Below, piece by piece: positions 1 to 58,852 of a stretch of DNA of 64,000 bases (positions within the stretch are counted from its first letter, which is position 1; every line of letters starts with the position of its first letter). The translations under genes and the position numbers were made by a program. The stretch is from contig OX439048.1 of NCBI GenBank assembly GCA_949317995.1, positions 65,973,375-66,037,374 of the forward strand. Reading direction: 5' to 3'. The notes below the pieces were generated by a model. That model saw only the letters and a list, made by a program, of their open reading frames with translations, ran no database searches and was not told the origin of the DNA. This DNA is from Acholoe squamosa. Its lineage: Eukaryota > Annelida > Polychaeta > Phyllodocida > Polynoidae.

Positions 1-428
1 ATTGGTCATTTAAAGTGCACAACTGTGAGGTATGGTAGTGAAAGAGCCAGTCAACCAGGTTGAGGTGGAGGCTTATCAGGAATTACCAGGGTCTGGGGGC
101 ATCATGGACGGTAGATCTCTCTCAGTTTTAATATCCTGTCTGCTAATGAAAATACAACAGAACCCCAGGAAGTTTCCTACAGCACGTGTTCTGCTATATA
201 CAGTGTTGTTGGACATTTTCCCAAATCTCATTTCCATGTGTGTATGCTAGTCTGTATATCAGGGTCTCTGTATCAGTACATTTACATAATTTAAGTTATG
301 GAGATGTTCTCAACATGGTATCACTAGACATTACAATTTGAAAGCCTTTAAATTAGAGTGGTGACCGTAGGTAATGTACCATGACTGCTCTTTGCAAGCA
401 ACATTGAGTGTAGTAATAACACAGTGCA
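1..428 (-). repeat. Long repeat copy alpha, Y block (edge of window)
   Basis: Read on the minus strand, positions 250 to 60 align with 53,880-54,080 and 27,470-27,650. Shared landmarks, in order, are GGAAATGAGATTT, a TCCAACAACACT..TATATAGCAG segment, and a TTCTGTTRTRTTTTC..GACAGGATAT segment. A more distant copy lies at 58,130-58,270. A 72-codon plus-strand frame at 32-250 exists only because this repeat happens to lack stops, and I do not regard it as a gene. The sequence continues beyond the left edge. Confidence 0.6.
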
Positions 429-791
429 GGAGGGTGTTGCTCTTATAGTAAAAGGAAGAGCTGGCTAAAAATGCCCTCATTTCCAGTCCTTTCTTTTCAT
501 GTAGCTATAACTTGTCCCTTTTGTTGCTCACAAGTGGTCATTCAAGTATGGTGCTAAAAAAGGGGGATTTGAGTAGGTACCTAGTTGGGAGAAGTCAGTC
601 AGTATAATATACTATAGAGTGTGTGACATGAGTAGGTACCTGATAGTGCAGCTCTCTCTGTTTTAAACAAGGCATGTGATGTTTCAGACTAATGTGGTGA
701 GTGCAAGTACTTAGGTGAAGCAGTGCATGACTTGTTTAGAAAAGAGGGATAAATACTCACAGCTCTTTTTACAATAGAAGCAACACCCTCC
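429..791 (+). mobile_element. MITE family A, copy 1
   Basis: A 363-bp element bounded by GGAGGGTGTTGCT at the left and AGCAACACCCTCC at the right. The inverted termini extend roughly 30 bp with interruptions (AAAGGAAGAGCTG against CAGCTCTTTTTAC). It has no coding capacity. Copies lie at 12,728-13,091 (same strand, same length) and 50,588-50,927 (minus strand, one end missing). No clear target-site duplication is seen, so the superfamily is not assigned. Confidence 0.8.
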
Positions 792-1160
792 ACATGTATA
801 CCAGTACAATCGGCTGTGGTCACTGGATACAAGGCTGTAATGGCATTAGGGTTCCACTACAGTTTGAATTAATTTTGCCTCAGCTGAGAGTCCCTTTTCA
901 GCTGTTTTCCCTGGTTATAGATGCATGTTTTAGCACTATACCGCTGGTAGATAGCTGAAGTACATCTTCACTCCTTCTCCTTCCCTCCCTATCCCACATA
1001 CAGGGCGCCAGCGACCTCTCACTGCCACATAGTAATCATAACCTTGACCCACTGCTCCCAAAGTGCATAATATTATCACAGAAGCATCTTCTCCAAACCA
1101 CATACCGAATAACCCAGCTAAATATCCTGAAATATCACACATGGCCTGACCCAGCAATAT
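792..1160 (-). repeat. Long repeat copy alpha, Y block start
   Basis: On the minus strand, 1157-936 reads GGGAGCAGTGGGTCA then GGTTATGATKACY and a GGGATAGGGAGG segment. It aligns with 25,590-25,670 and 52,680-52,760, and its tail AGCTATCTA aligns with 52,990-53,010. The 73-codon minus-strand frame here is a by-product of the repeat. Confidence 0.55.
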
Positions 1161-2429
1161 GTAAGTAGCTAAAGTAGAATGTTTTTACAGTGACTCAATT
1201 AGAATGGAAATTGGAGGCAATTTTATGGCCATGGATATTGTAAATCTAATCAAAATAAAAGTGGTATTTCCAACCCTGCATTATAGAGGCTTTGTTTTTG
1301 ATGTTATTTTATAGACCTTCAATATGGACTATGATAATCCATTCCTGAACTTTATCATCACAATCTCAGTATCAAATACTTCCTCTACACAGTAATAACC
1401 ATAGCATTACAGTAAAGATTGAAATGTATGCATCAGAGCATAATCCAGTGAAAACTTCTATCCCAAACTATTCTGGCCATGAATCTTGTGATGTAATCTT
1501 ACATAATCATTGGTTTGTATTCAACTAAATGTAGAAATAGGTGTATAAGGACTGGTCAACTCGAGGTGAAATGGTGGTCATCTCAAGGTAAAATCGGTAT
1601 GTTCTAGGAAATAAGTCCAATACAGAAAAAATTTTAACATTTCTGCTGTTTCCTTATGCTATCATTTAGCAAAGATATTTATGAATTCCTAGAGTGAAAA
1701 TGTTGTATATTCATCTTCAAATTATCGAACCAAAGTTGGAGAATTCTGATGAAATGGCCAGCTGGTCATGGTAAAAACCATTGAAACATGGGAACGTTAG
1801 TGTATTATCATGATTGATAATTACTTCATATATTCCAGGACATCATTCTATGGGGTACTATTACACCTCTATTTCAATGATATTAGGGTTCAAGACCAAT
1901 ACAGTACATGTGAGAGTGAAAAAATCTAGCTAACAGGTGGTCGACTCTAGGTATGTGGTCGTCTTTAGGTTAATCTACCCTATACCAACTTTGTATGTTC
2001 ACCAGTGGGTCCCTGAAATCTGGTGTGCCAACGTGGGGGCTTGGGCTTACCTTGGATACAGGACTTTTCGGCTGAAAGAATGGTAGAGAAAACTTTCTAC
2101 AATGTATCAATTTTGCCACATTTTTCTTGTTTAGGATAAATTACTTCAAAAGCATTACTCTATAGTGGGTGGGGCAATAGTCAATGGAATCAGGGTTTCT
2201 TTGCTTCTAGGCTCATTTTTTTACTCTCCTTGCTATAGTCTATAATGCAAACCCCTTGCATTAGGCACACATTATGTTCGGGAAGACGCTATATGCTACA
2301 GCAGAAGTATGAAATTGTCCATTTAAGCTATATGTGGTTCATTCACCAGGTTTTACAGTATTCCCAACAGTAGCGGAGAAAGGCAGCATGGACAATACAT
2401 TTTTTAATTAAGGCCAGAAACAATATCTT
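1161..2429. other. AT-rich sequence, no gene seen
   Basis: No open frame, RNA gene or terminal inverted repeat is recognisable. Two diverged direct repeats of about 35 bp lie at 1,554-1,592 and 1,939-1,972, each with the pattern GGTCRACTC.AGGT..GGTCRTCT..AGGT. The motif recalls the sub-repeats of the foldback elements at 6,404-6,672 and 49,921-50,224, so this may be an old relic of that family. Confidence 0.4.
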
Positions 2430-2770
2430 TCTGATTCTTGAAATTTCACGAGTTTTGGGAATCAATCTGTTGCTTTTGGATTGCTCATTTCTCATCTCCT
2501 GCTAATAAAAATAGAGTCTCATGTAACAGAAACCGTCACTCACTCTTAGGCAAGGTCATTAGTAAGGCTCTGAATGACAATAATCATTTGTAAATGACTC
2601 AATGGGACCATATAGATCCTTTTAATGGGGTGAAAATAACACCAATCACTATTCAATGAAGATGCCTCTCCTCATGGAGGGTTCAAGAAAAAGACAGTGA
2701 ATATTGTTGCAAGAGGCTGAGGACGAGTAGTTGAGTAGCAGATACATGTGTGATATAAGACCTGGTAGGA
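2430..2770 (-). repeat. Long repeat copy alpha, segment between R2 and Y
   Basis: This aligns in reverse with 50,935-51,250. Shared landmarks, in plus-strand reading of this copy, are CTCCTGCTAATAAAAATAGA, then CCTTTTAATGGGGTGAAAAT, then CCAATCACTATTC and a GGTTCAAGA..AGACAG..GAAT segment. The order relative to R2 matches copy gamma, which supports a single long inverted copy. Positions 2,771-3,040 hold nothing recognisable; the 65-codon frame there has no support. Confidence 0.6.
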
Positions 2771-3040
2771 GTGATGCCCGTCAACGGTGTCATGGGTGTT
2801 GATTCACAAGTAGAAAAGCTCCCAGAATTGACACTTTGCAATAACTGCTTTGTCCAATATTCATATAATCGATATGAAAAAGATGTGACAAAAAGCTATA
2901 CATATCCCACAAAAATCTTCTTTCTTTTTTCTTGTAACAAACAGTCATTCACCAATGCACAATGTTAGTTGGCAGCATAATATTTCCTCTACAGTGACAG
3001 CAATTCACTCTCAGAACAATTACAACACATGGATCACTTC

Positions 3041-3475
3041 TCACAAAATGTGCCATAATGATGGTGGAATTAGCCAGATATCTTTCAAGAAGTCAATCCA
3101 AAAGGGGCTAATCATGGAGCCAGATTTGTGAAATGGGTTATTGATCTATTTTGACTATTCCTTCATCTGATATGTGAATCAGACTCAAACTAAAGCCAAA
3201 CTAAAATGTCCTCTAAGAGGAGGTCTATAATTGCTGGTGTGCTTTATGTGGAACTAAGCACTACATTTCTAAGACAGGCTTAGTTTGCCAGAAAGTATAT
3301 GACTCTTTCATCCTAGCCTGGTACTTTTACTCTACCTTCCTATTAGAATCAGAAGGGATTTCTAAAAGAAATACTTTAGCACAGTTGGAAAACATCCCCT
3401 AGAATTCTTTCATATCTATGTGGTAATTGATCCAATTAAAAGAAGCATGTCTTCTGCTGATAAATCATGACTGAG
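3041..3475 (-). repeat. Long repeat copy alpha, segment next to R2
   Basis: This aligns in reverse with 24,740-25,020 in copy beta. Landmarks are GATGGTGGAATTAG, GGGTTATTGATC, AAGGGATTTCTAAAAGAAAT, ACTTTAGCACAGTTG and CCAATTAAAAGAAG. It is diverged, with small insertions and deletions, and shows no coding signal. Confidence 0.6.
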
Positions 3476-3487
3476 ATGAGGGTAGTT

Positions 3488-3597
3488 CCCAGGTAGCAAG
3501 GATACATTGGGCCAATGTCGGCTTGTATTGGGCCAATGTCGGCTTATATTGGGCCAAGCTTGGACAAGCATGGCCCAATGCTCCATTGCTGCTTGGG
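3488..3597 (+). mobile_element. MITE family B, copy 1 (110 bp)
   Basis: The left end CCCAGGTAGCAAGGATACAT and the reverse complement of the right end, CCCAAGCAGCAATGGAGCAT, form inverted termini of about 27 bp. The interior is two to three direct repeats of a 22-24 bp unit containing TTGGGCCAATGTCGGC. A second copy of the same length lies in opposite orientation at 26,706-26,815. The target duplication is not clear. Confidence 0.75.
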
Positions 3598-4109
3598 CTT
3601 TGTTGTAGGTAGAGGTTGTTAAACATAGTGCCTGAGACAGGGTGATGTTTGTTGAGATGCTTTGTATGGTTTAGTAGAATCATAAGGGATTTCTCAAAAG
3701 TACTCATGGCCAACTATTACTTATGTACACTGAGGTAGAGGCTGTGTAAAGAAATAGTAACTTTTCTAGGGTAAAGTTGAGAATGCTAAGCTACATTTTC
3801 AAAAATTTGATAATCTCCAACTTTGGTGATGAGGTGTAATAAAACAATTCTTGGCACAGGGATTTGATTTTCACTACACATAAAGACATACTTTATGGGT
3901 TTAATAACTGTCTGATTAAAAACGTTGCATATGTGAGGTTAAAAAAGTATGGTTTTATGCCATGGGCTATGAAAACTGACCAGTTAGGAGTTGGTGACTT
4001 GAATCAGCCTTTCTAATCAGCCAAGACATAGGGCTTTTGGTAAAATAAACTGTCATTAAGTAATATTGAGTTTGTCAATTCAATGGTCCTCACGCTGGTG
4101 AACATTGCT
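3598..4109. other. No recognisable feature
   Basis: AT-rich sequence with no open frame of note, no inverted termini and no clear match to other parts of the window. Confidence 0.4.
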
Positions 4110-4860
4110 CACTGAATCACCCCAGATACGAAGCTGGCCATATCATTCCCAGTCGGACCACTTTCCATGATAATCTATATGAGAGAGGAGAGAGATATAT
4201 GGCTAAATTTAATCCAACATCAGAGCTGTAGTGTAATCCTAAGAAAAACTCTGTATAGCTTCTGAGATAGCTATGGAGACTAACAAATCATCTTCCAAGA
4301 TGTCCCTCTTCACTAATCTACAAGATAAGTACCCGGTCTCTTTTCTCATCTCTCAAACCGACACTATCAAAATCTGTGCAAAAAACATTGAGGGGATAAG
4401 GGGATTATGAACAATTATATGTATCTAGACAAAATCTAGACAAGTTTTGATATTTTCTGAGGGCCCTCAGTTCAACCTCCGAAGTGTTGGTTCAAAACTG
4501 CACCTCTAAATTATAATACTAAAACAAAGGCTGCTAAAGCCCATCTCACACCACTGCCATGTTCTAGCACCAAAGGAAACTGCAAGACCTGATTGCAGGT
4601 CTTCACCAATCTTGCCTCTATATCCCTCCCTACCAATGACACTTACATGAGCCCTGTGCCGCTTTCAGCCCAATGGTCATTATGACCTTCACCTGCAGCG
4701 ACTACAGCCAATATCACAGAATCTCCCCTTGTCTGAGTTGAACCAACATACCCATTCATAACTTACACCTCTGATATATTAAGCCTCTCAGGTTGTTATG
4801 GTTTCTAGTGGTAAACATATTCAGTAAAAAGAGAAGGTAGATCTAACATAGTATATATCC
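4110..4860 (-). repeat. Dispersed repeat R2, copy 1
   Basis: This aligns in direct orientation with 5,455-6,730 and in reverse with 22,985-23,095 and 49,000-49,910. Plus-strand landmarks, in order, are CACTTTCCATGATAATCT, CACATCAGAG, CCAAGATGTCCCTC, CCTCAGTTCAACCTCC, CATGTTCTAGCACC, GACCTGATTGCAGG, ATATCCCTCCC, AATGGTCATTATGACC, CATTCATAACTTACACCTC and CTCAGGTTGTTATGGTTTCT. This copy has no foldback insertion after the ACACCTC landmark, so it is the empty site for the insertion at 6,404-6,672. Confidence 0.75.
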
Positions 4861-5274
4861 TGTCTCGACCACAAGGCACATTTGTTCCTTATCTCTACCA
4901 ACCTGGACTCGCTCATGACAGGTGACATGGATTCAGAACTGATTTCATCTCATTACCTACAATATGACTTATGCTACCTTGAGTAGGGAGGAGGCATAGA
5001 CCTTAGCTGCAGTAAATTGAGATCTATGGAGATACAGCTTTCTCTGCACAATAGGGAGCCTAAGTCTCGCAATAAACTATGTCGTAAAAAAAATTCTGAT
5101 TTGGAACTAAAATAACCAATATTTGAATTGACCCAAAGGCCCACCATATATGAAATTTTAAGGCTCAACTCTCATTCTTAAAAAAGTTATGCCAGGCCTA
5201 AAATTTTCCCCTATCCTTCAAGCTTGCGGGCGATAATTTGCTGAGCTCAGAATCCGCCTGCACGTGACGTGACT
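4861..5274. other. No recognisable feature
   Basis: Between two R2 copies. A 64-codon minus-strand frame is present but shows no domain or splice context. No inverted termini are seen. Confidence 0.4.
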
Positions 5275-6403
5275 TCACCTCCCTATTGGCCTATAATACT
5301 GCTTCAGATGTGACACAGGCAAATTATTAAAAAAATGATGGCTATCCCTCCATGTCAGATTCTGTGATATATGTGACAGAGACACATGTGTGATTAAAAC
5401 TGTATAGCTAAGATGATAGCTACTCATGAAGGTCAATATATCAGCAATAGTAACTGCGGCCATGACAGATACAAAGCTGACCGTATCACTCCACGCCACT
5501 TTCCATGATAATCTCTGTGACAGAGACATACACAGCCAATCCCACATCAGAGACATATCATGTACACACAAGACAAAGTCTAGATTGCAAAGAAGATGGC
5601 TGCTCAGATAGGGTTATATATCAGTGAAGGCGGATGGTGTCTGAACAGTTATGCAAACAAAATTTATACGATTCTTGTATTATCATCTACCAAGATGTCC
5701 CTCGCCACAAGTTATCAGTCTGATCATTCTCTTCCCAACCAAACACAGTGAGGAAAACATTAATGAGGGCATCCTTTTCTTATTATTTCACTGTTATGAA
5801 TATACTATTCACAGTTTTTGATAGTTGCACCTTTCGTGATAATTTAAAATTTCTAGTATAAAATACCTAACGTATGTATAAGTATGTAGAGGTCAAGTCA
5901 AGGTTGGACAATCAACGCGCTGATACAACAAAAGTGTTCAGAACAGGCATCAAGTGAGGTTCGGAAGTTACTAGGCAGTCTATACAGTCAGATATTAAAC
6001 ACTGATATTTGGGAACCTCTGGCAGTGTGTGGATCTTTTTTTATGAAGGTCCTCAGTTAAACCTCCAAAGTGTTTGTTCAAAGCTTTAAATGTTGAGACA
6101 CAGGCTGCCAATGCGCTTCTTATTTTCTAGTCCTTCATTTTCTGACCCTAATTTTACCATCACTGTCATGTTCTGGCACCAGAGGTGCTTGGAGACTAAA
6201 TCCTGCAGGACCTGATTGTAGGCTTTTACCAATCCAGCCTTGCTGTCCCTCCCTCTGAATGACACATACGTGGGACTGCTTTCAGACCATTGGTCATGTC
6301 ATCATAACCCTCATCAGTGGCCACTTCAGCCAATATAACAGAATCTCTCCTTGTCTGACTTGAACAAACATACCCATTCATAACTTACACCTCTTATATA
6401 CAT
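5275..6403 (-). repeat. Dispersed repeat R2, copy 2 (interrupted)
   Basis: This is the longest R2 copy, aligning with copy 1 and in reverse with 22,985-24,670 and 49,000-49,910. The stretch CTCCATGTCAGATTCTGTG at 5,348-5,366 matches, in reverse, the sequence just right of the 67-bp array (24,590-24,615). The stretch CCTCCCTCTGAATGACACAT at 6,247-6,266 is the single-copy form of the 67-bp unit's core. R2 is broken at 6,403 by a foldback element and resumes at about 6,673 (CTTCTCAGGTTGTTATGGTT) until the transposon at 6,733. Confidence 0.75.
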
Positions 6404-6672
6404 CACTGAAAACATGGAAGATCCGAAACTAGTCAGTGGTGACCACTTTAGGTCCTCAGGTTAACGATACCTAAAACTACAACTTTAGGTAGTCAAAATG
6501 ACGACTTTAGGTCATCATCCTGATGACCTGAGTCATCAATATGATGACTCTGTACTGTCAGGATTGTCATCCTGAAGATGGTTGACTACCTAAAGTTGTA
6601 GGTTTAGGTATCGACAACTTGAGGACCTAAAGTGGTCACCGCTGACTAGTTTCAGATCTTCCATGTTTTCTG
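6404..6672. mobile_element. Foldback (palindromic) element FB, copy 1
   Basis: A 269-bp near-perfect palindrome. The left arm starts CACTGAAAACATGGAAGATC and the right arm ends GATCTTCCATGTTTTC. The arms are built from short sub-repeats of the type CTTTAGGTNNTC and TGACGACTTTAGG, and the centre is AGTCATCAATATGATGACT. It sits inside R2, and R2 copy 1 (around 4,776-4,790) and gamma R2 (around 49,015) lack it. A second copy is at 49,921-50,224, where TA flanks both ends. It probably belongs with TA-duplicating (Tc1/mariner-like) non-autonomous elements; that family call is inference. Confidence 0.85.
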
Positions 6673-6732
6673 CATGCTTCTCAGGTTGTTATGGTTTCTT
6701 CCATTGGTGAACGTATTAAGGAAAAGAAGATG

Positions 6733-8231
6733 CCCAGCAAATTGTCGTGACTCCTCGTCAACCTGTGTGAAGTGGCTCACACATGTCGCTAGATGGAACA
6801 CGACGTCGCTATAGCACAAGTTCACCAGGAATAGCAATGGTGGTGATCACATGGCCTGACCTCAGATGGCGAGGATGGTGATCACTCAGACTCACCAGGG
6901 ATGGCGACGCGGGTGATCACTCACCTCGCTAGATGAAACACGCACCTCGTCATAGCACATGTTCACCAGGGATGGCGAGGATCGTTATCACTCATCCTCA
7001 CCAGGGATGGCGACATGAGTGATCACTCATCCTCACCAGGGATGACGACATGAGTGATCACTCACTTCGCTAGATGAGACGCACACCACGTCATAATACA
7101 CATTCACCACAGATGGCAAGGATTGTGATCAGTCACCTCGCTAGATAAAACGCGTACCTCGTGATAGCACAGGTTCACCACAGAGGGTGAGGATCTTGAT
7201 CACCCACACTCACCAGGGATGGCGACACGAGTGATCACTCACCTCGCTAGATGAAACGCGCACCACATCATAGCGCAGGTTCACCATGGATGGCGAGAGT
7301 GGTGATCACTCAGACTCACCAGTGATGGCGACGCTGGTGATCACTCACCTTGTTAGATGAAAACCTCATGATCATGGACATTGGTAATCATGCAGCCTCA
7401 CATCTGCCAGATCAAAGTATGTTTTGCCAGAGAAGGTATTGCCATATGTATCTTCCCTCTAACCACAGACAAGGTGTTCATGTTGATATTTCCCTATGTA
7501 TTTTTCCTGTAACCAGAGAAAAGGTGTTTATGGATAGTTGCTTTCATTTTGAAGATACCTCTATCTAAATTCAATTGATATTCTCTCTATATAATCTTGT
7601 TTGATTCAACTCTGAAGTATTACATGGAAATCAGTGTGAAACAAAGCACATTTGATACGTATGGGACTTATACTTCATGCCCACACTTCCTAGATAGGCT
7701 ACATGTTGAACAGTGGTGCTGTCTCAACAACTTTGGCAATGGTGGTGATAAGTTGCCACTGTGAGTGAGAGTCAGTGACAGATGATGCAATCCTCAGAGA
7801 GCATTGACCTGGAGTGACACAAATTCACGTATTGAGTGAGACCAATGTTGGCAATGGTGGTGATAAGTCGCCATTTTGAGAGAAGATTAACTAGGAGTGA
7901 TACACACTCACGCAGTGAGTGAGAGCCATGTGGCAATGCAGGTGAAAAGTTGCCATTCTGACTGAGAGTTGACAGGCAGTGGCACATACTCACGCAGTGA
8001 GTTAGATCCATGTTGGCGATGGTGGTGATAAGTCACCATGCTTTGTGAGGGATGACAAGGGGTGGCACATACTCACGCAGTGAGTGAGATCATGTTGGCG
8101 ACTGTTGTGATAAATCGCCATGCCATGTGAGACTGACACACAGTGGCGAAAGATGACGCAGTGAGTTATCACTCAGAAAGGAGTCACCATTGATGACCAA
8201 TCATGGCGACAGATAACGACAATTTGCTGGG
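6733..8231. mobile_element. 1.5-kb TIR element with two internal tandem arrays
   Basis: The left end CCCAGCAAATTGTCGT and right end ACGACAATTTGCTGGG are perfect 16-bp inverted termini. The left interior (about 6,840-7,350) holds about five 70-145 bp repeats around GATGGCGAC, GTGATCACTCACCTCGCTAG and GTTCACCA. The right interior (about 7,730-8,190) holds about five 77-bp repeats around GGCGATGGTGGTGATAAGTC and ACTCACGCAGTGAGTGAGA. The two arrays share words in opposite orientation (TGGCGA, GTGAGTGA/TCACTCAC), so they may be extended, internally amplified TIRs. The middle (7,360-7,700) is unique and has no transposase. It is non-autonomous; the superfamily is unknown and the target duplication unclear. 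Confidence 0.8.
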
Positions 8232-8539
8232 TGGTAGAACTGACTTAGAATATAGCAGGAAAAGGAGAAAGCAGAACCTCAAAAAAGGAGGGGGTACATG
8301 TAACAAGATAACACTTGACAAACTGTTTTTATAGTAAACATTGGATCATCTAATGCTTTTACTATGTTATCTAATTGCCCTACTAAAAGAGCTCACGCAA
8401 AGCCTCATTTTATTTGAAACCTGTTGAAACATAAATGTATGATTTTAAAGTGTAACAAAGATTTAATGGTTGAATTATAATGACACTATGTTATGATAAG
8501 TCAGGAGAGTGGAGCAACACAAGGACACAGCCAACTACT
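8232..8539. other. No recognisable feature
   Basis: AT-rich sequence between the TIR element and block R3, with no open frame. Confidence 0.4.
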
Positions 8540-9174
8540 ACATTCATACAACATTTCCAAGCTGAGACTCTAATTACATACAGGGAAAACCTTTTCTAGT
8601 CACTGATCCTCAAGTAGTGTGGTTGAAGCTTTTCCCCGTGGGCAGAATCACTAAGGGGCTGTATCTGTGGGTAACAGATAGTAATTGGAGGTACTCAGGC
8701 CCAAGGCTTAGCCAATAACAGCTGAACAACATGAAGATTTACATATTGACCCATTCATCATTGCCTTAATCTGTTCCTGCTAGCTGCGTTAGGACAACAG
8801 CTGGTTCCTGTTTTCTTAAGTTACGGTTCAAATATTATGTTTTTCTCACAGCCATGACCTTTCAAGGGATCGAGCAATACACATTGGAGGTTGGACATCT
8901 GGCTTATCCACATGTGGAAAATAAGTTTTCAATTGTGCTTTGTTCAATGACCCAGGGTAGGGTTTGAATGCCATATTTGCATAGATAATCTACAAATCTT
9001 TTCTACATATCTAGGGGACCTAGATCTAGAAAAAAAAGTGCTATTTCAAGGCAAAAGCTTGTTTTCAAATCAACTGGGCCCTGGCTCTCTTCTGTATTCC
9101 GCCAATCCTAATCTCCATGGTGCCCAGGGAAATATCAACCAACTACCTGACTTAACTTAGCCATAAGGTGGCTC

Positions 9175-9923
9175 TTAACTCTTCTTTTACCAAGGTGTTT
9201 TTGGCTTAAAATTAGTCTCTATAGACTATCATTATCTTTCAAATGCTGTTTGAATCATGTTGATATTCTAACTAGAAGCTGAGTCATGAGTGTGCAAGGT
9301 AAGCATATGGACAAAAACCAATGGAATCCTGAGTGTCCATATCTATTCTGATAAGGCAGATATGATGGTGATAACATAGCAGGCATATCCTGCAAAATGA
9401 TGATTTTGTCAAACTTTACATAATCATATCTTAGGACTCCCTCTATCAATTTCCATGAAATAAAAAGCACATATTTTTGAATATTTTAAAAATTTTCACG
9501 TCACATGGTCACATGATTACCATGGCAACCAAATTAATCTAAAACCGCTACTTTCAGAGTATCTGTTGCCATGGCAACTGATATTTTTGTCAGGAATCCA
9601 CCAAAATGTATAAAATTGTTGGTACAATCTTTTGCTTCATGAAAAACTATTAAATTATTCTAATTTTTTATGATTTTTTGCCAGTAATAATCATTAGAAT
9701 TGGCCCAAACCTTTCTTAATTCTCTACCATGTTTAGGAGCTCACCCTATATCAGCAAAACTAGAGACTAGTGGTTTAAAATATGAACAGACCTCATACCA
9801 TAGGGCAAGCTCTGAGGAAATCGTAAATTTCATTGAAAATTCAAGGAGAGAGAGGGTACGCTAAATCGGCCAAAAATAGGTGAATTACTTGCAGAAATGC
9901 GCGTTCAGTAAAAGAAGAGTTAA
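9175..9923. mobile_element. piggyBac-type non-autonomous element (TTAA ends)
   Basis: The element starts TTAACTCTTCTTTTACC and ends GTAAAAGAAGAGTTAA: 12-bp inverted termini CTCTTCTTTTAC with TTAA at both outer edges, the target duplication typical of piggyBac. It is 749 bp including one TTAA, AT-rich, with no transposase frame. The flanks rejoin as a continuous R4 sequence (CTTCCTCTTCT then AGCCACCTTAT, read on the minus strand) matching the uninterrupted R4 at 20,478-20,510, so the insertion is precise. Confidence 0.8.
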
Positions 9924-10681
9924 AGCAAGAAGAGGAAGTCCCCAAGGGGGACCCCCAGCACAGTGCTACTGGCAAGGGCAAAGCACGAATTTCAAACAGA
10001 TATTCAAATCTGTTTGCAAAGAGTTAAAAAAACCTGTTCCAATTTAGCCACAGTATTGTCTAGCCCTGTATCTGCTTAGTATTCCCCTCATCCTGTTGCC
10101 ATGGGACCCAGGGAACCTGAACAATCTCCCTGTTACTTATGAATAAGATGCCTTTTAGTGTCGAAAGAGGTAGTCCTCTGGGAACCCAACCTAGTTTTGA
10201 CATCAAAGCTACATCCTTCCCTGACACCGATACTCGACCTACCGGGTCACCATGACATCAAAGGGGTAAACATGGACTGCAGGAATCCTGTAATACAACA
10301 TGGGATGCTGCATACAAACAGACAGATCCACATATAGGTAGACCTACATGTAGGTACACACAACAATGTATTATATCTGTATGAAGATATCAGACAGGAG
10401 GTGCCTTACACTATAAGTATATAGAACCTTACCTACAGGTAAACAGTCCCCCACAAAGTAATCTATACTTACAGTTTACATATGCAATACAATAACAATG
10501 ACTGCTTGAGCATATCTCATTACCAGACCTTGTCATGGTGCCTTATGTTCCCTAAATAATTCCTTTGGCAGAAGTGTTTGCACACACTACAGTCTTAAGG
10601 GGATCTTTACAGGCCTACCACGGAAACACCTCCAGTGACGTATGAGGCATCCCAAGCACATTATTATAGACTACCCAAGGT

Positions 10682-10689
10682 ACACACAA

Positions 10690-10771
<82 letters not shown>
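10682..10771. repeat. (CA)n(TA)n microsatellite
   Basis: A compound dinucleotide tract: about 30 bp of CA followed by about 58 bp of TA. It lies within the alpha long-repeat copy and has no equivalent at the matching position of copy beta. The tract gives spurious low-complexity frames on both strands. Confidence 0.95.
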
Positions 10772-10774
<3 letters not shown>

Positions 10775-11130
10775 ACATGTACTGGGAAAGGGGCTCTTAT
10801 TCCCTTTGCACTAAGGGCCCTTTTCACAGATCGTGTCACATATTATGGTCAAACATCCTGAATATATCCGGGCACTAAGAGGTTCCGCACACAGCCACCC
10901 AGGGGGTGTGGGTGACAGGAAGTCAAACATAGCAGAATGTGGTGGTATATCCTGCATGGGAGTTCATACATACCTGTATTGGGACATTACCGAGGAAGTT
11001 GGAGGTAGCGAGGATTCTTGGGAATGTTGTAGAAGGTTTGGAGGTTGGGTGTAAGTGAAGAGGATTTTGAGCGGATTGACTCCAAGGGCATGTTGGTAGA
11101 ATAACATGAGGCAGAGAGAACAGAGAGCCC

Positions 11131-42480: not shown

Positions 42481-42623
42481 TCTAATTCAGATGTTATCAG
42501 GCTCAAGACTATAATGTTTTTCCATAAGAAATTTGCAGCAAAATATCCTGATACACCTGTATAGGAGCTCATCTTTACCCTTTATGAACTGCACGGTGCA
42601 ATTCAAATACTGCAATGCACCCT

Positions 42624-42790: not shown

Positions 42791-42828
42791 AAACAGGTAC
42801 TATTTTATCTTAAATTATCTTGTGATAG

Positions 42829-45042: not shown

Positions 45043-45048
45043 TTACCT

Positions 45049-46261: not shown

Positions 46262-46451
46262 TTAACCCTTGAAGGGCTTTTGACACAGGAGTGAGTGCAT
46301 TATGCCTATTGGTCTGCATACCAGCACTTCATTGGAGCATCATGCCTACCCTCCAGAGGTGTATAGATCCCATAGGGATGTCATGATACATGAATGTATC
46401 ATGACTATTGAGTATGATGCATCAATGCATTGATGTTCCTTAAAAAGTCAA
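46262..46451 (+). mobile_element. MITE family C copy; partial copy follows at 46,585-46,665
   Basis: It starts TTAACCCTTGAAGGGCTTTT, has CAGCACTTCATTGGAGCATC in the middle and ends CATTGATGTTCCTTAAAAAG near 46,447. The right TTAA is decayed. A fragment with CATTAAAGGCTGCTGATGCA and CATCATGATGCAACAATGCT follows about 130 bp later. Confidence 0.65.
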
Positions 46452-48745: not shown

Positions 48746-48984
48746 GTGCCTTTATGTTGCTCCACTTTCCTGACTTGTCCTTCGATATCATGATGTCATT
48801 CTATTGTGACTGTTGATTCTTTAAAATCATGAACGTTCTGACAGTTTTTAAATGAATTGAGGAGTTGTGTGGATGCTTTTAGTAGGAAGATTAGATTATG
48901 TTTGGTACACCTGTTCTGCTCTGTCCTTTTCCTAATATATTCTATGTTAGTTCTAGTTTCTCTTTTGCCCGAATACATCTACCA

Positions 48985-49915
48985 CTAGAAGAAACCATAA
49001 CAACCTGAAAAGCATATATATCAGAGCTGTGAGTTATGAATGGGGATGTTTATTCAAGTCAGAAAAGGAGAGATTCTGTGATACTGGCTGTAGCCACTGC
49101 GGGTGAAGGTTATGATGACCATCGGGCTGAAAGCAGAGGAGGCCTCACGGAAGTGACATTCACAGGGAGGGACAGGGAGGGACAGGGAGGGACAGGGAGG
49201 CTGGATTGGTGACAGCATACAATCAGGTCCTGCAGGATTAGTCAACAAAGCACCTCTGGTGCCGGAACATGGCAGTGATGGTGAAATTAGGGTCAGATAT
49301 AGAATTAGAACAGTGCTTTGCAAACCTGTATTCTAGTATCTAAGGTGCACCTTTGAACCAATGCTGTAAAGGTTGACCTGATGTCATGAAATATCAATAC
49401 CCTGCCAGAGGTACCCACATACCAGTGTTCAACATCTGATTCTGCTTGAAAGAACCACCTAGAGCTTACATTATGTAACTTTCTTCAAGGACTAATGTTG
49501 TATCGGCCATTTGATTCCTATCCATAATTGTACATAAGTTAGGCATTTCAAACCATAAGATTTCAAATATCATTAAAAATGGACAGCAAGTGTAAACAGT
49601 ATTCCATAAGTATCTTATTCTTAATGATTTCTTCACTGTGAATAGTGTTGGTTTGAGAGAAAGGTGGAGACTGAGACTCTTTTTGGAAATTAATGTTAAG
49701 GGCCATCTTGGTAGATGATCAAACTGTATAGTGAAAAACAAGAATTGGTTAGTTTCCTTATCTTTTCAGGGACAATCCACCTTCCCTGATAAATGTATAC
49801 CAAAGCTCAGGAGCCATCTTCTTGGTATACAAACTTTGCCCTATGTGCACACGTGTGTAGTACATCTCTGATGTGGGATTGATGGAGGATCTGACATTGA
49901 GGGATATATATAGTC
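48985..49915 (+). repeat. Dispersed repeat R2, gamma copy
   Basis: This is the reverse equivalent of 4,110-4,860 and 5,275-6,400. Landmarks are CATAACAACCTGA, GAGTTATGAATGGGGATGTT, AGATTCTGTGATACTGGCTG, GGTTATGATGACCATCGGGC, AATCAGGTCCTGCAGGATTA, CACCTCTGGTGCCGGAACAT and CATCTCTGATGTGGGATTGA. At 49,158-49,200, exactly where beta carries the 67-bp array, it has four copies of a 10-bp GGGACAGGGA repeat. The start, 48,746-48,984, shows nothing. Confidence 0.75.
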
Positions 49916-49920
49916 AGGTA

Positions 49921-50224
49921 CACTGAAAACCTAGAAGTTCTGAAACTAGTCAGCAGTGACCACTTTAGGTCCTCAAGTTGACGATAACTAAAACTACAGC
50001 TTTAGGTAGTCAAAATGACGACTTTAGGTCTTCATCCTGATGACCGGAGTCATCAATATGACGACTCTGTACTGTCAGTATTGTCATCCTGATGACTCAG
50101 GTCGTCAGGATGACGACCTAAAGTCATCATTTTGACTACCTAAAGCTGTAGTTTTAGGTATTGTCAACTTGAGGACCTAAAGTGGTCACCGCTGACTAGT
50201 TTCGGATCTTCCATGTTTTCAGTG
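49921..50224. mobile_element. Foldback element FB, copy 2, with TA flanks
   Basis: A 304-bp palindrome related to 6,404-6,672. It starts CACTGAAAAC and ends GTTTTCAGTG with TA immediately outside both ends (49,919-49,920 and 50,225-50,226). It is longer than copy 1 because the central GTCATCCTGATGAC/GTCGTCAGGATGAC words are repeated. It lies at the outer edge of gamma R2. Confidence 0.85.
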
Positions 50225-50587
50225 TATTCCTTAACGTTCTATGACTTAAGTCGTCTGAAGCTCTGTCCTACAGAGCCATCAGATGATCTCAAGTTGTATA
50301 TCTCCCTCCATAGATCTCAGCAAACTGAGATTTATGAATCCTCCCTGTGCAAGGCAAAGGCCATTATGCGTGACTGCACTGCATAACTGAAGGTCTTCCG
50401 AGACCTAATGGACGTGTCTAGCCATACCTTGTTAGAAAACGTCCCACTGGAAGTAATAAGCCATTATTATCTGGAAGCCAGTCTTGAGAAAGGCCTTCTG
50501 GTGATAGTGAAGTAATGTGTCCTATGACAATTAAAAGAACAACTGTTTGCATTCTACTAAGATGAAACTCAACATAAACTATGTTGA
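50225..50587. other. No recognisable feature
   Basis: Single-copy sequence between the foldback element and a truncated MITE. A 74-codon minus-strand frame has no support. Confidence 0.35.
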
Positions 50588-50927
50588 CGGACAGTTGCCC
50601 TTTCTTTATACATGGGTTTGTAGTCACGCTCTGCTTCAACATTCAACTTGCACTCACCGAATTAGTCTGAAAAGGCACCTGCCTTGTTTAAAACAGAGAG
50701 AGAGCTGCACTATCAGGTACCTACGCATGTCACACACTCTATAGTATATTATACTGACTGACTTCTCCCAAGTAGGTACCTACTCAAATCCCCCTTTTTT
50801 AGCACCATACTTGAATGACCACTTGTGAGCAACAAAAGGGACCAGTTATAGCTACATGAAAAGAAAGGCCTGGAAACGAGGGCATTTTTAGCCAGCTCTT
50901 CCTTTTACTTTACGAGCAACACCCTCC
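50588..50927 (-). mobile_element. MITE family A, copy 3 (one terminus lost)
   Basis: A reverse copy of 429-791. It ends AGCAACACCCTCC at 50,927 with the intact terminus, but homology fades near 50,588 and the second terminus is absent. The interior shares GCTGCACTATCAGGTACCTA and CATTTTTAGCCAGCTCTTCC. Confidence 0.75.
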
Positions 50928-50934
50928 AGAAAGG

Positions 50935-52589
50935 CATTTCTTAATATTATTACACATCTCTATCACACACTCGTCTTCAAATGCTTGCAACCAGATTCAC
51001 CGCTGTCTTGAACCACCTTCAGTGAATAGTGATTGGTGTTATTTTCACCCCATTAAAAGGACCTATGATCTCATGGAGTCTCATTTACAATGGATTATTT
51101 TCACTCAGACTCTCGTTAATTAATGATCATGTCTGAGAGCAAACAGACGGTCAGGTTTCTCTTCCATGACATTACTCTATTTTTGTTAGCAGGAGATCAA
51201 ATATGAGAAATACAAGAGTAACAGACCAATTCCCAAAGCTTGTGAAATTCAAGGAATCAGGATAACATTATTCCTGACCTAAATTGCAAATGTATCTGCC
51301 ATGCGGTTTTGTTCCCTTTCTGTTGTGACTACCGTAAAACCTGGTGTATAAGCCACAGCTTAGATAGATTTCAGACCTCTGCAGCCTAACGAGCCTTCCT
51401 GAACTTAAGGTGTGTCTTGTATGAGAGGGTTTCACATAGACTATGCCCAGGAATGACAACCTTTCAGACCCACAGTGTGGTTTATAGCAAAGCCAAACAC
51501 TAAAGGTAATGGCTTGTACTTATAATTATAGCCTAAGCACAGGAATCTCAAGCAATAACAAAGCAAACAAAACTTTCATTATTAAGCTTAGTTAGTAGGC
51601 CGATACACTGATCAATGACTCAGACATAATGTCTAAATGCTACATAATGAATTGAAATGACATAGGGAGCATTTGCGTCATTCAGAACCATGGTATTAAG
51701 TAACAAATCAGCCTTAAAGCAAACCAAACCATATCTGATTAGTTATTGTCCCACCCACTACAGAGGAATCCTAATTAACCTAGACTTCAGCATACTTTAT
51801 TGTGTTTCATCTGTACCCTCAGGTAATCAATATTCTTAATACAGCTGTGTCTGTGTTCCCTTTACACCTGGAAGGCATTTCTCAAGATGGTATGACTAGA
51901 CCTCTTCAAATCGTACTGGAATAACTCACAACAATGCCCTTTTAGCCCTGCATGCATGGTAAGACTGCCCAAACAAACCCTACGTAATTACTACATTATA
52001 TATATGCTGATCATACAGAGCAGTCGTAGCATATTATCTACGATCACCCACTCTAATTTTGAGGGTTTCAAATCATAGTGGCAATCTGCAGTCGTACCAT
52101 ATTGAGAAATGCCTTCCTGGTCTAATTCTGCTCAGACAATGGTTGAGTAGAGCAGAGTAGCACTGGTCACCTTCAGGAGTTCAGCAGCAATTTTGGCCCT
52201 GTCACATAGACCAGGATAATATGATTGCTTCCGAGAAGCAGCTAAAGTTTAGTGGGGAATGCTTTTTTTATGGTTTTAGGATTTGATAACTATAGAACGG
52301 TAATAAAATGACAAAAAGCTGAATTCAGTTGTGTCCTGTGGGATATTCCTGAAGTCTTATTCATGGGGCACCTCAGGTATCAAGGTATAATATCTCCCTA
52401 CTGTATGAAATAGTATCTCTAAATGAAACCTTTGATTGCACTTATTGCATGACATTTTCTAGTAAGAAAGCCCTTGCAATCTGGTTGTCATTTATAGCTC
52501 ACGTGAAGACAACTTAAAAACGATGTTCAAAATCGATAGTCTACTTAAGCTACTTGGACGAAAGCATTCATGGGTAGACAGAGATCTGC
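50935..52589 (+). repeat. Long repeat copy gamma, segment between R2 and Y
   Basis: Positions 50,935-51,250 match 2,430-2,770 reversed. Positions 51,745-51,880 match 13,750-13,865. Positions 51,965-52,030 (CCCAAACAAACCCTACGTAA) are a relative of the 66-bp unit, reversed. Positions 51,345-51,430 contain CTGGTGTATAAGCCACAG and GGTGTGTCTTGTATGAGAGG, an inverted pair typical of small MITEs. The remainder shows no feature and no gene. Confidence 0.55.
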
Positions 52590-54100
52590 TAGAGCCATGT
52601 GAGATTATGAGGTGTGGATGGGTGATTGGATGTGTGGATAGGTGCTGAAGTAGGGTCTTAGCTTCTTTGATATTGGCATTGGGAGCAGTGGGTCATAGTT
52701 ATGATGACCTTTGGGCTGTAAGAAGTCCCTGCCTATGGGATGGGAAGGGGGAGGAGCAGGATATCTTACAGCTTCCTAGCACCTCTAGACTGCATCCACA
52801 AAGACGGAGTAAGGCCAGACAAAAGTAGATAGCATAAGGGCTGGCTTTGGCACCTGCTTTAAGCACTTCACCATTTTAAAAGGGAAAGCCATGTGAGTAG
52901 GGGTTATGATAAGCATTAGGCTGTATGAAATCCCTATAAGAAGTCTCTGCCCATGGGGTAGAGAGCGGATGAAGTAGGAGAAATGATGTATTTCAGCTAT
53001 CTAGCACCTCTCTCCACTGTAAAGAAAATCACTTAGACATAACGACAAAGGTCTGTGTACCAAATTTGCCTTTTACTTTTACAGAGATTCCTCATACCAC
53101 AGTACTGCAATATTTGAGGCTTCAGTATAGGTACTAGGGTGTTTTACTTCAATATGATTTTGGTGGTACACTGCTACGTTCAACATGTATTTCATTTAGA
53201 TTAAATAGTCATTTCTCAAAGTGTAGTGCTGGCAAATGCTTCTAGAACCAGGGAGTAGGATCATACAGGAGGAGCCTCCATGGCCTGCTTTTAACCGTTC
53301 GCCATTTCGAAAGGGAAAGCCACATATGTAGGTCCTTTATTTCTAAACAAAGAGAATGACATAATATGTGTTTGTCAATTCTGAATTTAACCAGTTTGAA
53401 TGATCAAATACTAAAAGAGCTTGTCAGTTGAAGCAAAATTAGGATCAGGATATATGTTTAAGTTGCTTGAACAAAGTCTACTACTATAAATACCAGATGC
53501 ATGGCACAGTAAATGCCTAAACATTAAACCATAGAGGCAGGTGGGATCTTGTATACTGTATTATATGATATAATATTATAGTAAAATATGAAAGAAGTGG
53601 AAAACATTTAGGAAGGCATTTCTTAAGTTGGTAAGACTAGACCCCTTTAAATGTTAGTTTAATCCCTCGCTGTAGTGCCATTATAGCCTCACATCTAGTG
53701 AGCAAAACTGATTGCCCTTGTACAACTGCTCTACCAAATTTTATGTAATTACTAAACTAATTGCTGATCATACTATGTTGGGCAAGGCCTTCCTGAAAAA
53801 GTATACATAACATAACTTTGGGAATGAATGTACATTTTCATATGAATATATGAACAGTACTGAAATAGTGTATTCATATATATGGAAATGAGATTTAAGA
53901 AATGGTCCAACAACACTATATATAGCAGCAGTACAACTTTGGATTTAGAGAGTAGGTACTTTATTAGACTTCTGAGGTGACGTTCTGTTATGTTTTCGTT
54001 AAGAGACAGGATATGAAAAGTGTACGGATCCACACTCCATGATACTGCCAAACCCTTGTAAATCCGGATAAACCCCCTTCCTCTCCATATTGTGTTGATG
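52590..54100 (+). repeat. Long repeat copy gamma, Y block
   Basis: This aligns with 25,490-27,660 without the three MITEs found there, and in reverse with 1-300 and 936-1,160. Landmarks are TCTTAGCTTCTTTGATATTG, GTTATGATGACCTTTGGGCT, CCTAGCACCTCTAGACTGCA, TATAGCAGCAGTACAACTTT and CACACTCCATGATACTG. A 120-codon minus-strand frame (53,773-54,135) is discounted because equivalent positions in beta are broken up. Confidence 0.7.
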
Positions 54101-54229
54101 CAATAGCCAGGGGAATAGATGGAAATAGCCTGCATTAATGCACATGAAAGACATAATCATTTCTATTTTTAGAACTTTTCATAGCTAGTTTAGTTGGTTT
54201 AGGTTTAAACTTTTCATAGTTGGAATACA

Positions 54230-54408
54230 GCTCTGACAAAAAAAAAAATCAGCATGGCTACATTTAGCATTCAGGACTGTCCCTATGGGGTTCATCAGCC
54301 CCCAGAGGGTCCTGGTAAGCAGACTCATCATCACTTCAATGGTGCACCACACTGAGCAATAGGCATGATGCACTTCTACATTAATGGCCCTTCAGGTTTT
54401 AATGTGGC
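54230..54408 (-). mobile_element. MITE family C, partial copy
   Basis: The right portion reads CATCACTTCAATGGTGCACC, then GCATGATGCACTTCTACATT and AATGGCCCTTCAGGTTTTAA, matching family C ends. The left end is not identifiable. A polyA-like run precedes it at 54,238. Confidence 0.5.
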
Positions 54409-54679
54409 TCTGGCTTAGTTATTCATCGGAGTTGTCTCTATACATTATACCGACACTGAGTTACAATGCATTCAAATAATAGGAGAACTTGAACAAGTTC
54501 AGCTATTTAAAACAATGTCTAGCCATTCCAATACTCTTGCAACATGGCCTACAGCAGTATGTTACTTTGCTCTCTCATTATCTTATATCACCACTGATAC
54601 GCTTTTAATTTCCAGGGCTAGAATTTTGTATCAGATACCAATGGTCATATCACCATCCATAACAGCTCAGAAATACCAT
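54409..54679. other. No recognisable feature
   Basis: AT-rich interval before the gamma Z block. Nothing of note in either strand. Confidence 0.35.
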
Positions 54680-57506
54680 ATCTAATGTGAAAGATAATTG
54701 CGAATTATAAATCTTTCTACAGGACAGAGCCTTATTCATGCTAGTAAAAGAAATGATTAAAATAGATCAACAAGCCTTTCCATACTTTTACAATTACACC
54801 CAAGTCAATTGAATCTCACTGCAGTAAGATAAGACCTATGCGACTGATTTCACCATCATTCTTGAGCTTCAATAATTTATGATTGTTTCTTGAGTTATTA
54901 TCTCATGAGATTTGTCATCATTAATTTACAGTGGTTCCATCTTATGTCTGCCTGAAATTCCACTAATTGACGACCATCCTTTATGGAACTTCCCATGAGG
55001 ACAGACATTATCTGTCAAAAAGGTTTAATTTCAGCCTAAATTTCAGCCAAAACATAAAGGACTTTCACTCATAAGGCACCATTATTCACCATGGAATAGC
55101 TTCTTCTAAGACTTTCAGTAATGACCCTGTCTGGGGGAGCTTCCCTTGGATGGTTTGGTTTTAATTCCAAATGAAATTGAAGAATTTGAAAAGCAGCCGT
55201 GTAACAATTAAGATCAGAAAAAAAAATCCTGATTAGAAGTGATCAGAAGTACCTCTGCCACCTGCCTCTTTCCAAAACTTGCAGACAAATCTGTAGGTAT
55301 GAAGGTTAGGGAGGGAGGTGACATGACTTTGACCACGATTTGAGTGAATGTCAACATCTCAGGTTCATTAAGCCTACACATACTCAAGATCACTGAAGTA
55401 GCCAATGGAACTAAGTGCATAGCATTCCTAACTATAATGTTTTTCACCTTATTCAGTGACAATCTGAGCTTCATGATATAACAAGGATTCTATAATTTGG
55501 TCGACCCATTTCTACTATTCTTGTACAGATGGTTTTGGTGAAAAGAAACATTAACTTTTTAAGCCTAACCCTCAGAATTAGTTTGTACCAAGTTTGATAG
55601 TATATCTAAAATGGCTTCCAGTGTAAGCGCCCTTCATGTTTAGAAGTCACCAGTAGGACATATCTGAGAACCTCACTGGCCCCCTACATTGAGTTGTGAC
55701 CTTCTAACTACATACCAATACCCTTCCCTCCAGAGTTGGTGTAGCTGCAGCTCACACTCATCCCAGCTCCAACCCAGCCCCCAGCTCCCACCCAGCCCTA
55801 CTTCCTTCCCGGGTAATGCACCACCACTTCCTGTGGTATTTGGCTTCCTTTCACCCACACCTTCTGGCGGCTGCAGGAGGAACCTAGTCTTGGTGCCTGG
55901 ATGTAGGCCTGGTCCTGTGAAAAATGTAAGTAGGTGGGATGAGCACAGGCAGCATGTCAAGAAACAGAGCCATCTGTTGGCTCTAATGTTCTACTATATT
56001 TGCCCTTTTGTCATAGTAACTTGCTGGTTAGGATATCGGTATCAGGGAGGGGTGTGGGATCGCTGTCAGGACTACACATGCTTCCCTCGGGACAACTACG
56101 TTTGGCTATATAAACCGTCATGTAAGGGTTGTCAGTGAGGAAGTGCTGTGTTTCCTGAAAAACAAAGTAAACCTATAAATAGAACAGGGGTTTTCGATGT
56201 CCTTCTGAGTGTTAAATACAAATATTTGGTATAGAAAATTATGGTTGATGCAAACCATTCACTGTTCCCAATATCTTTAAATATTTTTCCAAAATATGTT
56301 TGTGCCCAAATATTCAAAAGGAGTTTGTCTTTTGAGTAGTCTTGAAAGAACTGAGGATGTGGGTCAAGCATCAAATATCCCGCAAACACTTATGGATGAA
56401 AGGTTAGATATTGAGGCTGTATGAATTGAATCATAGTTCGAGCCAAATACCACTGCATTTAGGTAGCCAAAGACTAGGACAGGACTAGATCATGGCCATT
56501 TTTGGCGGAGACATCCAGACGTCTCAGGTTACTCTGGGGTTCCTTCAGACACACCACCTCAGCCATTCAGCCTGAGGACTAGGGGCAATGGGGGCAGTGG
56601 TCTGGGAGAGGGCTCTCACAGAAAGTGAACAGTATGTGGAGTTCATGTCCTTGACTATTTGGATGCGTAGGAGATTGTGTGCCTCATGCCAGGGTAGGCA
56701 AAAGACATTCAAATGAGATCCTAGTATGTTCTACCATCTGGGCCTTCATTGTTGAAACTACACTGCTTATACTGCAATATGATTAGGGTCATTTACTACT
56801 CAGTTTCAACAGTTATTTCTTAGAGTGTGCTCTTATATGAATCAGTAGGGTTTCATAGCGAGTGAAAGTATTCCACTATGTTAATATGTATACAGCCGTA
56901 TGATGTATAGGCCTAAACCTGAGCTTGATTGCTCAGATGGCAGGAGTGATCCTATATATAGGTTGATTAACTGAAATCTGCATGTAAGGTGTGGAGATCT
57001 GTCATTGTGGGTAAGGTGGGGGGTAGGGGAAAGGTGATATTAGCTGGGGGACCAATGGGTATGGATTGTGATGATCATTATGATTGGCAGGTCCCAGCCC
57101 GAGGAATATGGTGGGATAGATGTATAGGTGTAGAGATGTAGCACACAACTTATGCACACACGACCAGACACAGGAAAATATTTTTAGAAAAATTTCATAT
57201 CCCTACAGGTCCGCTTCAGCCTTGAGCATCAGCGCACACACATGGAGTGGATGGATCCACTAGACTTTAAACAGTATGTATATCAATGCACTCTTGAAAG
57301 TCTGCAGATTTAAACTTCATCCTATGCCTCGATGCATTGATGCATGGGACCGGTTTCCACTGTTAACCTTTCTGACATATACATGACCCAAAGTCTAAGT
57401 GGATTTCTCACTTAACACATTGGTTGCTGTTTGACTAGGGATGAGGAAAGGTGAGTTGGCTTCAGAGCAGAGCTTGCTGTCAGGCTATGTGACTGGCTTT
57501 TGATAC
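54680..57506 (+). repeat. Long repeat copy gamma, Z block
   Basis: Colinear with 28,870-32,278. R5 lies at 55,740-55,900 (AATGCACCACCACTTCCTGT, GCGGCTGCAGGAGGAACCTA). It is followed by GGTTAGGATATCGGTATCAG and a GGCTATATAAACC box at 56,107, and then CATCCAGACGTCTCAGGTTA, GGGCCTTCATTGTTGAAACT and GGTGTGGAGATCTGTCATTG. A 149-codon plus-strand frame (55,689-56,138) lies across R5 and is not conserved in the beta copy, so it is discounted. Confidence 0.75.
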
Positions 57507-57740
57507 TTAACCATTTAAGGACCGATAATGTATCAATGCATCATACCTATTGGACGTAATAATGCGACTACCTTGCCAGCGCTGCATTCATGCATGCCTA
57601 ACCTAGAGTGTTGGCACCCCCCGAGTACCAATCATTAAGTGCTGGTGAGCAGACTCTTCAGACTCTTCAGCACTTCATTGGTGCATCATGAGGACCAATG
57701 GGCATGATGCACTCCTGAATTAGTAGCCCTAGAAAGTTAA
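57507..57740. mobile_element. MITE family C (TTAA-flanked), shared with copy beta
   Basis: It starts TTAACCATTTAAGGACCGAT and ends GTAGCCCTAGAAAGTTAA. The interior contains CAGCACTTCATTGGTGCATC and ACCAATGGGCATGATGCACT. It occupies the same position as 32,279-32,507 relative to the Z block, so it was inserted before the duplication. Confidence 0.75.
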
Positions 57741-58852
57741 GGGCCATTGATCCATTGATACATCATGCCCAGCCAATGAAGATTTGCCAGCACCTCATTA
57801 GAGCATCATGTTTCAAGCTAGATCACACAAATATACTTTGTACATAACTTTTTATATAAAACCCATCAGTCTTATATGTAAGAGACATGTAATTAAGATG
57901 AGTTGTGCTAGTAGGCCCCTAGTGGACATGAAGCCTTAATACATTCGCAGCTCTCAAAGGTAAATGACGACATAGACATTGCCATGGGCAAGTCATTTGG
58001 TCTATGCTGCCTAGAAAAGAGAGTTGTACCACACTACAGGACTGCCAATTATGTAAATGGTATGGAATGGCATCTTAAGTGCGTTTGAAGACCTTTATAG
58101 GCAGAGTCTTGTATATACATGAACAGCACAATTTGATATAGAAAGTGGACAAGTAAAAATAATGTTCTTGTCTCCTGTTGTGCTTTCCTTAACAGACAGG
58201 ATATCAAAACTGAGAACAGTTCAGGCTGCAGGATGCCCAAGGCCTTGGTAAATCCTGATACGGCTCCTTCTATCATGCAGATATCAGTGCAATAGTCAGG
58301 GGAGAGAAGATAAGGGGGACTACAATAAATTAGGCTTTGCTTATACAATCCAGACCTTCTAACCCTTATTGCAGGGTATTTCTTTTTATATCTACATGCC
58401 TTCCATGTGTACAAAAGATTCATAGACACAGACTTGGCAGATGTACTCATAGCATATGTTTGCAGTCATTGCACCTTCATAAATGCCCTGTAGAGCCAAA
58501 TCATCATCACAAGGACTCTTGGTCCTATTGTAAGTACACTAGCCACACCTTGGTGCCCTGCAGCTGAGTCTAGTTAGGTTAAGGGCCGTTTATTGTTTGA
58601 ACATTTTATGTAATATAATTACACAAGTTGGTGACTTCACCTCCCTGAATGCTCATTCCCATGGTTACGGGGCGGAGGTGGTGCCCTCATTACATATGGC
58701 CATGCACTTGTGTACAAGTGCGAGTAACCATGACTACGCCCTTCGTCACTGGTCTCAGTCTTGTTGCTTATATATTTGATGCACATGGAAGCAAGAAGTT
58801 TAGATACTATAGGAGAGGTCACTGAGAGCATAGTCTATGGGTAGAGTGTGAC
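57741..58852 (+). repeat. Long repeat copy gamma, Z block continued
   Basis: This aligns with 32,876-34,850 and 38,440-39,300: AAAACCCATCAGTCTTATAT, GGTATGGAATGGCATCTTAA, GACAGGATATCAAAACTGAG, AATCCTGATACGGCTCCTTC and CCTGCAGC..AGTTAGGTTAAG. It lacks the 72-bp MITE and tandem duplication seen in beta. A 133-codon minus-strand frame (58,049-58,450) runs through repeat sequence and is discounted. Confidence 0.65.

Follow-up and report, generated by a model that had tools for sequence, protein, structure and literature searches.

An old, decayed cluster of local segmental duplications in mixed orientation probably accounts for a non-coding locus of the annelid Acholoe squamosa

A stretch of 64,000 bases of the Acholoe squamosa genome (G000:C14:65973375-66037374, hereafter the window), whose end lies ~2.85 Mb short of the end of contig C14 (68,891,374 bases), very probably belongs to an old and decayed cluster of local segmental duplications, in mixed orientation and in non-coding DNA. 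Measured per 2 kb, its G+C content ranges from 36.5 to 46.6%. Chained pairwise alignment over 264 kb shows six colinear copies at the locus (A to F, Table 1), which together span ~94 kb and are laid out as the inverted copies D and C, then A and E, then B and F.

Results

Six diverged copies share one order of blocks

The window was aligned with itself with its four large tandem arrays masked, and the alignment was rerun over 264 kb with 100 kb of flank added on each side and all TRF arrays masked. Copies were defined by chained pairwise alignments (HSP chains) in the 15 pairs among A to F; positions are counted from the window start, negative ones lying to its left. The preliminary description of the window had reported that blocks R5-R4-R3-R2-Y-Z recur in this order on the plus strand, and the masked self-alignment and the chains together recover the blocks, their order and their strands, so that the self-comparison gives a shared block order and not scattered matches. 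The A-B chain runs from 20624 paired with 47480 to 34793 paired with 58791, and B starts at the 20.6 kb equivalent in A, in agreement with the first R5 having been described as missing from it. The A-C chain lies on the minus strand and runs from 11081 down to -708, beyond the left window edge, as expected for the inverted copy that had been traced from 11.1 kb to that edge. The partial Z copy seen earlier at 36.3-39.3 kb corresponds to the Z repeat of E, and the post-Z sequence of E has its counterpart chiefly in F within the 264 kb examined (segment matrix). R5 and the start of Z, which had been listed as separate blocks, are related to each other in the self-alignment (18994-19112 to 29926-30041, 84% identity; 20130-20268 to 30292-30431, 72%).

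The best chain took up 18 of 32 HSPs for A-B, 14 of 20 for A-C, 17 of 26 for A-D, 9 of 24 for B-C, 20 of 27 for B-D, 12 of 22 for C-D and 14 of 20 for E-F. Between the two groups of copies, the best chains took up fewer HSPs (A-E 4/11, A-F 3/7, B-E 3/8, B-F 3/7, D-E 3/6, D-F 3/6, C-E 1/1 and C-F 1/3). Neither the reversed sequence nor three first-order shuffles per pair gave a single HSP in any of the 15 pairs. The B-C chain includes a match of 50622-50927 with 732-429, a high-copy element, which may stand in this chain by chance and which inflates the B-C identity.

At alignable sites, copies A to D are 77-80% identical to one another, with K2P distances of 0.247 (A-B), 0.270 (A-C), 0.247 (A with D), 0.261 (B-C), 0.239 (B-D) and 0.275 (C-D), while E and F are 84.5% identical (K2P 0.175), and A, B and D are 70-74% identical to E and F (K2P 0.32-0.38; A-E 0.376); all of these divergences are underestimates, because only still-alignable stretches were counted. 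The combination of high divergence with colinearity over kilobases, which was noted at the outset, is thus borne out by the long chains and the empty controls. An assembly error behind the copies is unlikely at such divergence.

Whether the copies build most of the window, as was first stated, depends on what is counted. The chain ends of A, B, C and E enclose ~49 of the 64 kb, and the statement holds for this span, but the chained alignments themselves cover just 25,691 of 64,000 bases (7,948 of 16,251 in A, 9,024 of 11,601 in B, 4,877 of 11,320 in C and 3,842 of 11,001 in E). Minisatellite arrays make up ~10 kb of the window according to TRF, and transposable elements occupy other gaps. The background control, a 20-kb piece of contig C3 at 40.0 Mb, had 8 self-HSPs, made up of six palindromes and two short direct repeats (55 and 85 columns), and a long colinear chain was absent from this one small piece. 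When the 264-kb region was cut into 20-kb slices, the 13 full ones had between 6 and 57 self-HSPs, with slices inside the array as low as 6 and 8. HSP counts per 20 kb do not distinguish the locus, since the copies are too distant to share one slice; it is the long colinear chains alone that set it apart.

Table 1. Copies, repeats, insertions and conserved core at the locus (window positions unless given in kb)
Feature	Position	Strand	Basis or remark
Copy D	-12.5 to -1.0 kb, left of the window	-	pairwise chains
Copy C	1..11288, past the left edge to about -0.7 kb	-	A-C and C-D chains; 11087-11288 pairs with 13889-13682
Centre between inverted C and A	11289..18902		contains the 66/48-bp minisatellite
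Copy A	18903..34882	+	blocks R5-R4-R3-R2-Y-Z; longest copy; chains to B, C and D
Copy E	36322..46376	+	diverged Z tail (~36.4-39.3 kb), then sequence matching mainly F
Copy B	47480..58791	+	without the first part of R5; A-B and B-D chains
Copy F	65.1-81.6 kb, right of the window	+	E-F chain
66/48-bp minisatellite	13,986-18,812		TRF; between C and A; counterpart in C absent
67-bp minisatellite, ~22 units	23093..24571	+	TRF; inside A
31-bp minisatellite	43683..45044	+	copy E; same unit arrayed at the equivalent place in F, 78,053-80,832
Dispersed transposable element in A	25671..26194		short inverted ends at the junctions
Old dispersed element fragment	31540..31729		in part common to B (from 56,727) and D (-9,638 to -9,772)
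High-copy ~365-bp element	414..790; also 12,715-13,090 and 50,622-50,927		inverted ends; outside the duplicated segment proper
Conserved core, ~170 bp	21960..22130	+	present in all four of A-D
Core counterpart in B	~48,550-48,730
Core counterpart in C	~8,590-8,750	-
Core counterpart in D	about -1,310 to -1,480	-

Insertions and minisatellites within and around the copies

We examined the gaps between chained stretches for elements shared by the copies or private to one of them. At the site of the dispersed element of copy A, B is uninterrupted at ~52,760 (A 25505-25670 pairs with B 52597-52762, and A 26195-26703 with B 52759-53257), and the relatives of this element on other contigs are mostly 91-97% identical among the matches listed; hence, the element postdates the duplication. 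The old fragment further along A, on the other hand, holds the same chain place in A, B and D and therefore predates the duplication. A 1.5-kb insertion lies in copy C at 6728-8234, and for parts of it a copy near -44 kb shows ~98% identity. Full-length copies of the ~365-bp element, 94-97% identical, lie on many contigs among the best 40 of 1,953 candidates.

The minisatellites were followed with a unit search over the 264 kb. Position 18903 pairs with 11081 and 13889 with 11087, and as these partners in C are 6 bases apart, the region of the 66-bp array is without an equivalent in C. Short single matches to the 66-bp unit were found in ten places elsewhere, and the unit is also arrayed at 114985-116920 in the right flank, on the opposite strand and ~100 kb off. 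For the 67-bp unit of A, the search otherwise gave just a 24-bp match in C (6,249-6,272). A further minisatellite with a 23-bp unit (~155 units, 61384 to 64971) crosses the right window edge, and its long open frames arise because the repeat returns to the same frame every 69 bases.

The flanks hold duplications of their own, both inverted and direct, on the right (96.7-117.5 vs 137.4-117.5 kb; 113.6-121.9 vs 122.7-127.6 kb), and a direct pair on the left (-44.9 to -31.2 and -37.1 to -21.7 kb). Neighbouring ORFs are LINE-like or resemble glycosyltransferase 92 and death-domain proteins. At L023:410-1541 (minus strand), ~154.4-155.5 kb right of the window start, lie ORFs that by eye resemble the type-B DNA polymerase of a Maverick-like element; Pfam does not bear this name out, as one of them had no match and the other matched only a zinc finger below the cut-off.

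A conserved core in copies A to D

One stretch near 22.0 kb in A stands out by its conservation in the three partner copies, and we looked at whether each copy might have been kept for a conserved non-coding element, such as an enhancer or a long non-coding RNA exon, with the remainder drifting. Here, 59 of 1,090 window positions had an identity of 83% or more to each of the three partners. When 10-bp blocks were permuted, a procedure that understates natural rate variation, none of 500 permutations gave as many such positions, while 3 of 500 matched the observed maximum. Where a column had three partners, the minimum identity averaged 0.65. The conservation of the core exceeds the expectation from simple neutral decay; mild constraint may account for it, as may local gene conversion or chance variation in rate.

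The other tests of the core gave no sign of an RNA element. Among its four sequences, 0 of 45 pairs had changes on both sides; it had no Rfam match up to E 1, and its folding was ordinary (z 0.26 and 0.73). Unusual folding was likewise absent from three conserved blocks on both strands, and the whole window had no Rfam match at the gathering score and no tRNA in a search with the bacterial code. A structured RNA was considered as a candidate and was rejected on the Rfam, tRNA, folding and covariation tests, the last of these being weak with only four sequences. No core frame is open in all four copies; one frame is open in A and B but is broken by a stop codon in C and by a frameshift in D. 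A second block of ~70 bp (A 24761-24835 with C 3407-3341 and D -3003 to -3074) has 92-93% identity and no unusual folding. In summary, the count of conserved positions and the mean minimum identity argue for an element kept in each copy, but the missing paired changes, the ordinary folding, the lack of an Rfam match, the leniency of the permutation and the 3 permutations that attain the observed maximum argue against it, and we consider this explanation unlikely. Old local duplication with subsequent decay is the reading that we prefer.

Coding potential of the copies

Clusters of genes in tandem and inverted order yield maps like the present one, and the core, with its frame open in A and B, lies in all four copies. 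We looked for a trace of coding sequence. When the 264 kb were scanned by codon position in windows of at least 35 codons, 18 of 728 reached p<0.001. All of these fell in two reverse-transcriptase-like regions outside the window, and since these regions scored, the scan is able to detect real coding DNA. In the chains among A to D, third-position bias at p<0.01 was found in none of 783 stop-free windows of ~30 codons, a total in which windows with fewer than 8 differences are counted but unable to score, and from which exons shorter than ~22 codons escape. Open frames under purifying selection were thus not found in the copies. Ten column-shuffled controls gave 0-4 scoring windows among 474-574 stop-free ones; stop-free windows are commoner in the real copies than in these shuffles, which is a point against the reading that we prefer.

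The indels in the A to D chains had lengths divisible by three in 18% of 557 cases. All 28 non-array ORFs of at least 90 aa were searched against Pfam, with nothing near the cut-off; two weak matches, at 12 and 10.2 bits, fell far below the cut-offs. Three of the 12 array ORFs were included in this search, and the high-scoring Pfam matches of three minisatellite frames (e.g., CHDNT and DUF5647) were rejected as artefacts of repeated letters. A coding gene in the unit was rejected on the codon-position, indel-length and Pfam tests, in keeping with the earlier statement that no coding gene explains the repeat. Hence, a decayed or unrecognised gene cluster, with exons that are short, lost or too diverged, is very unlikely: the resemblance of the map to such clusters and the partly open core frame favour it, and the interrupted frame in C and D, the absence of third-position bias within the reach of the scan, the indel lengths and the lack of a Pfam family in the ORFs tested all speak against it.

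Genome-wide searches with parts of the unit

The preliminary description had left two readings, a very large non-coding repeat family or the repeated local duplication of one segment. We searched six probes, each part of a block, against the genome (1,481,437,319 bases in 63 contigs). With the probe 29.0-31.41 kb, 16 of 16 matches were local (C14:65.964-66.039 Mb; 10 of 10 candidates scored), and in the same 1.48 Gb the probes 20.0-21.0 kb and 21.2-22.3 kb had 3 of 3 and 5 of 5 matches at the locus, no match beyond it being listed for the latter, which bears the core. On these three clean probes, the segment is not dispersed.

The three other probes were crowded by dispersed elements, and the best 40 of 2,382, of 14,109 and of 624 candidates were scored, so that the block-by-block search that had been proposed is conclusive for the first three probes only. 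Among these best 40, the matches of the first crowded probe on other contigs fell mainly on 31.52-31.75 kb, with weak ones at 32.28-32.33 and 32.41-32.49 kb; those of the second fell mainly on 25.67-26.21 kb and, less strongly, on 26.70-26.82 and 27.16-27.25 kb; and those of the third extended over 40.92-41.39 kb. The matches listed on other contigs are thus on short pieces of the probes and not on blocks in order. The local copies are missing among the best 40 of 14,109 candidates of the second probe, which covers R3/R2, and R3/R2 is therefore without independent proof of locality. For the bases beyond the three clean probes, among them R3/R2 and parts of Z and E, locality is neither supported nor refuted by the crowded ones.

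Of the two readings, repeated local duplication is the one that stands. A very large dispersed family, such as a giant non-autonomous transposon with several copies here by chance, would fit the kilobase colinearity and the two orientations, but it is hardly credible given that the three readable probes match this locus alone, that every copy found lies within ~94 kb, and that the A-B relation extends past Z as E-F.

Discussion

We propose that a segment of ~11-16 kb, from R5 to Z, was copied locally until it was present four times, as D and C, inverted, on the left, and as A and B, direct. The second direct copy and its neighbour would have come together, the larger block A-E giving B-F at an offset of ~25-35 kb. 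Two or more events may have produced the copies, through unequal exchange or replication-based template switching, and nearby inverted and tandem repeats perhaps assisted the copying. In the order that we infer, R5 and the start of Z would have been related from the formation of the unit on; copying in both orientations would then have given D, C, A and B, and E would have been copied along as F. After copying, the units probably drifted for the most part neutrally, and single copies gained transposons and growing minisatellites. As E-F is less diverged than A-B, this pair may have exchanged sequence later or changed more slowly.

Segmental duplications are usually defined by a length of 1 kb or more and an identity of at least 90%. 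Like such low-copy repeats, the present copies are 10-30 kb segments duplicated nearby in both orientations, together with the transposons inside them; unlike them, they are much older, as judged from the identities given above for A to D and for E-F, with large unalignable gaps and no gene found. Since their identity falls below the 90% cut-off, we call them old and decayed rather than recent duplications. Macrosatellites are head-to-tail arrays of near-identical kilobase units at one locus. The locus shares with them kilobase units at a single site, but its copies are few, stand in both orientations and differ by K2P distances of 0.18-0.28, so that it is not an array of this type. The Sp185/333 (SpTransformer) genes of the sea urchin are reported to form repeat-rich clusters with segmental duplications, and these resemble the present locus in having local duplications beside short tandem repeats (PMC5103432, PMC10887614). 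Those are clusters of genes, whereas no coding gene was found in the units described here. The kind of locus is already known, and it is the instance that is new.

It is quite improbable that the ~170-bp core is a functional non-coding element and that selection retained local duplicates of it in both orientations while the units around it decayed, which would make the locus a regulatory or RNA-exon cluster without a protein-coding gene. If the core were functional, the locus would exemplify the local amplification of a non-coding element. The locus alone alters no general view. It indicates that a stretch in which no genes are visible can be built to a large extent by serial local copying, and that shared and private transposon insertions order the events by which this took place.
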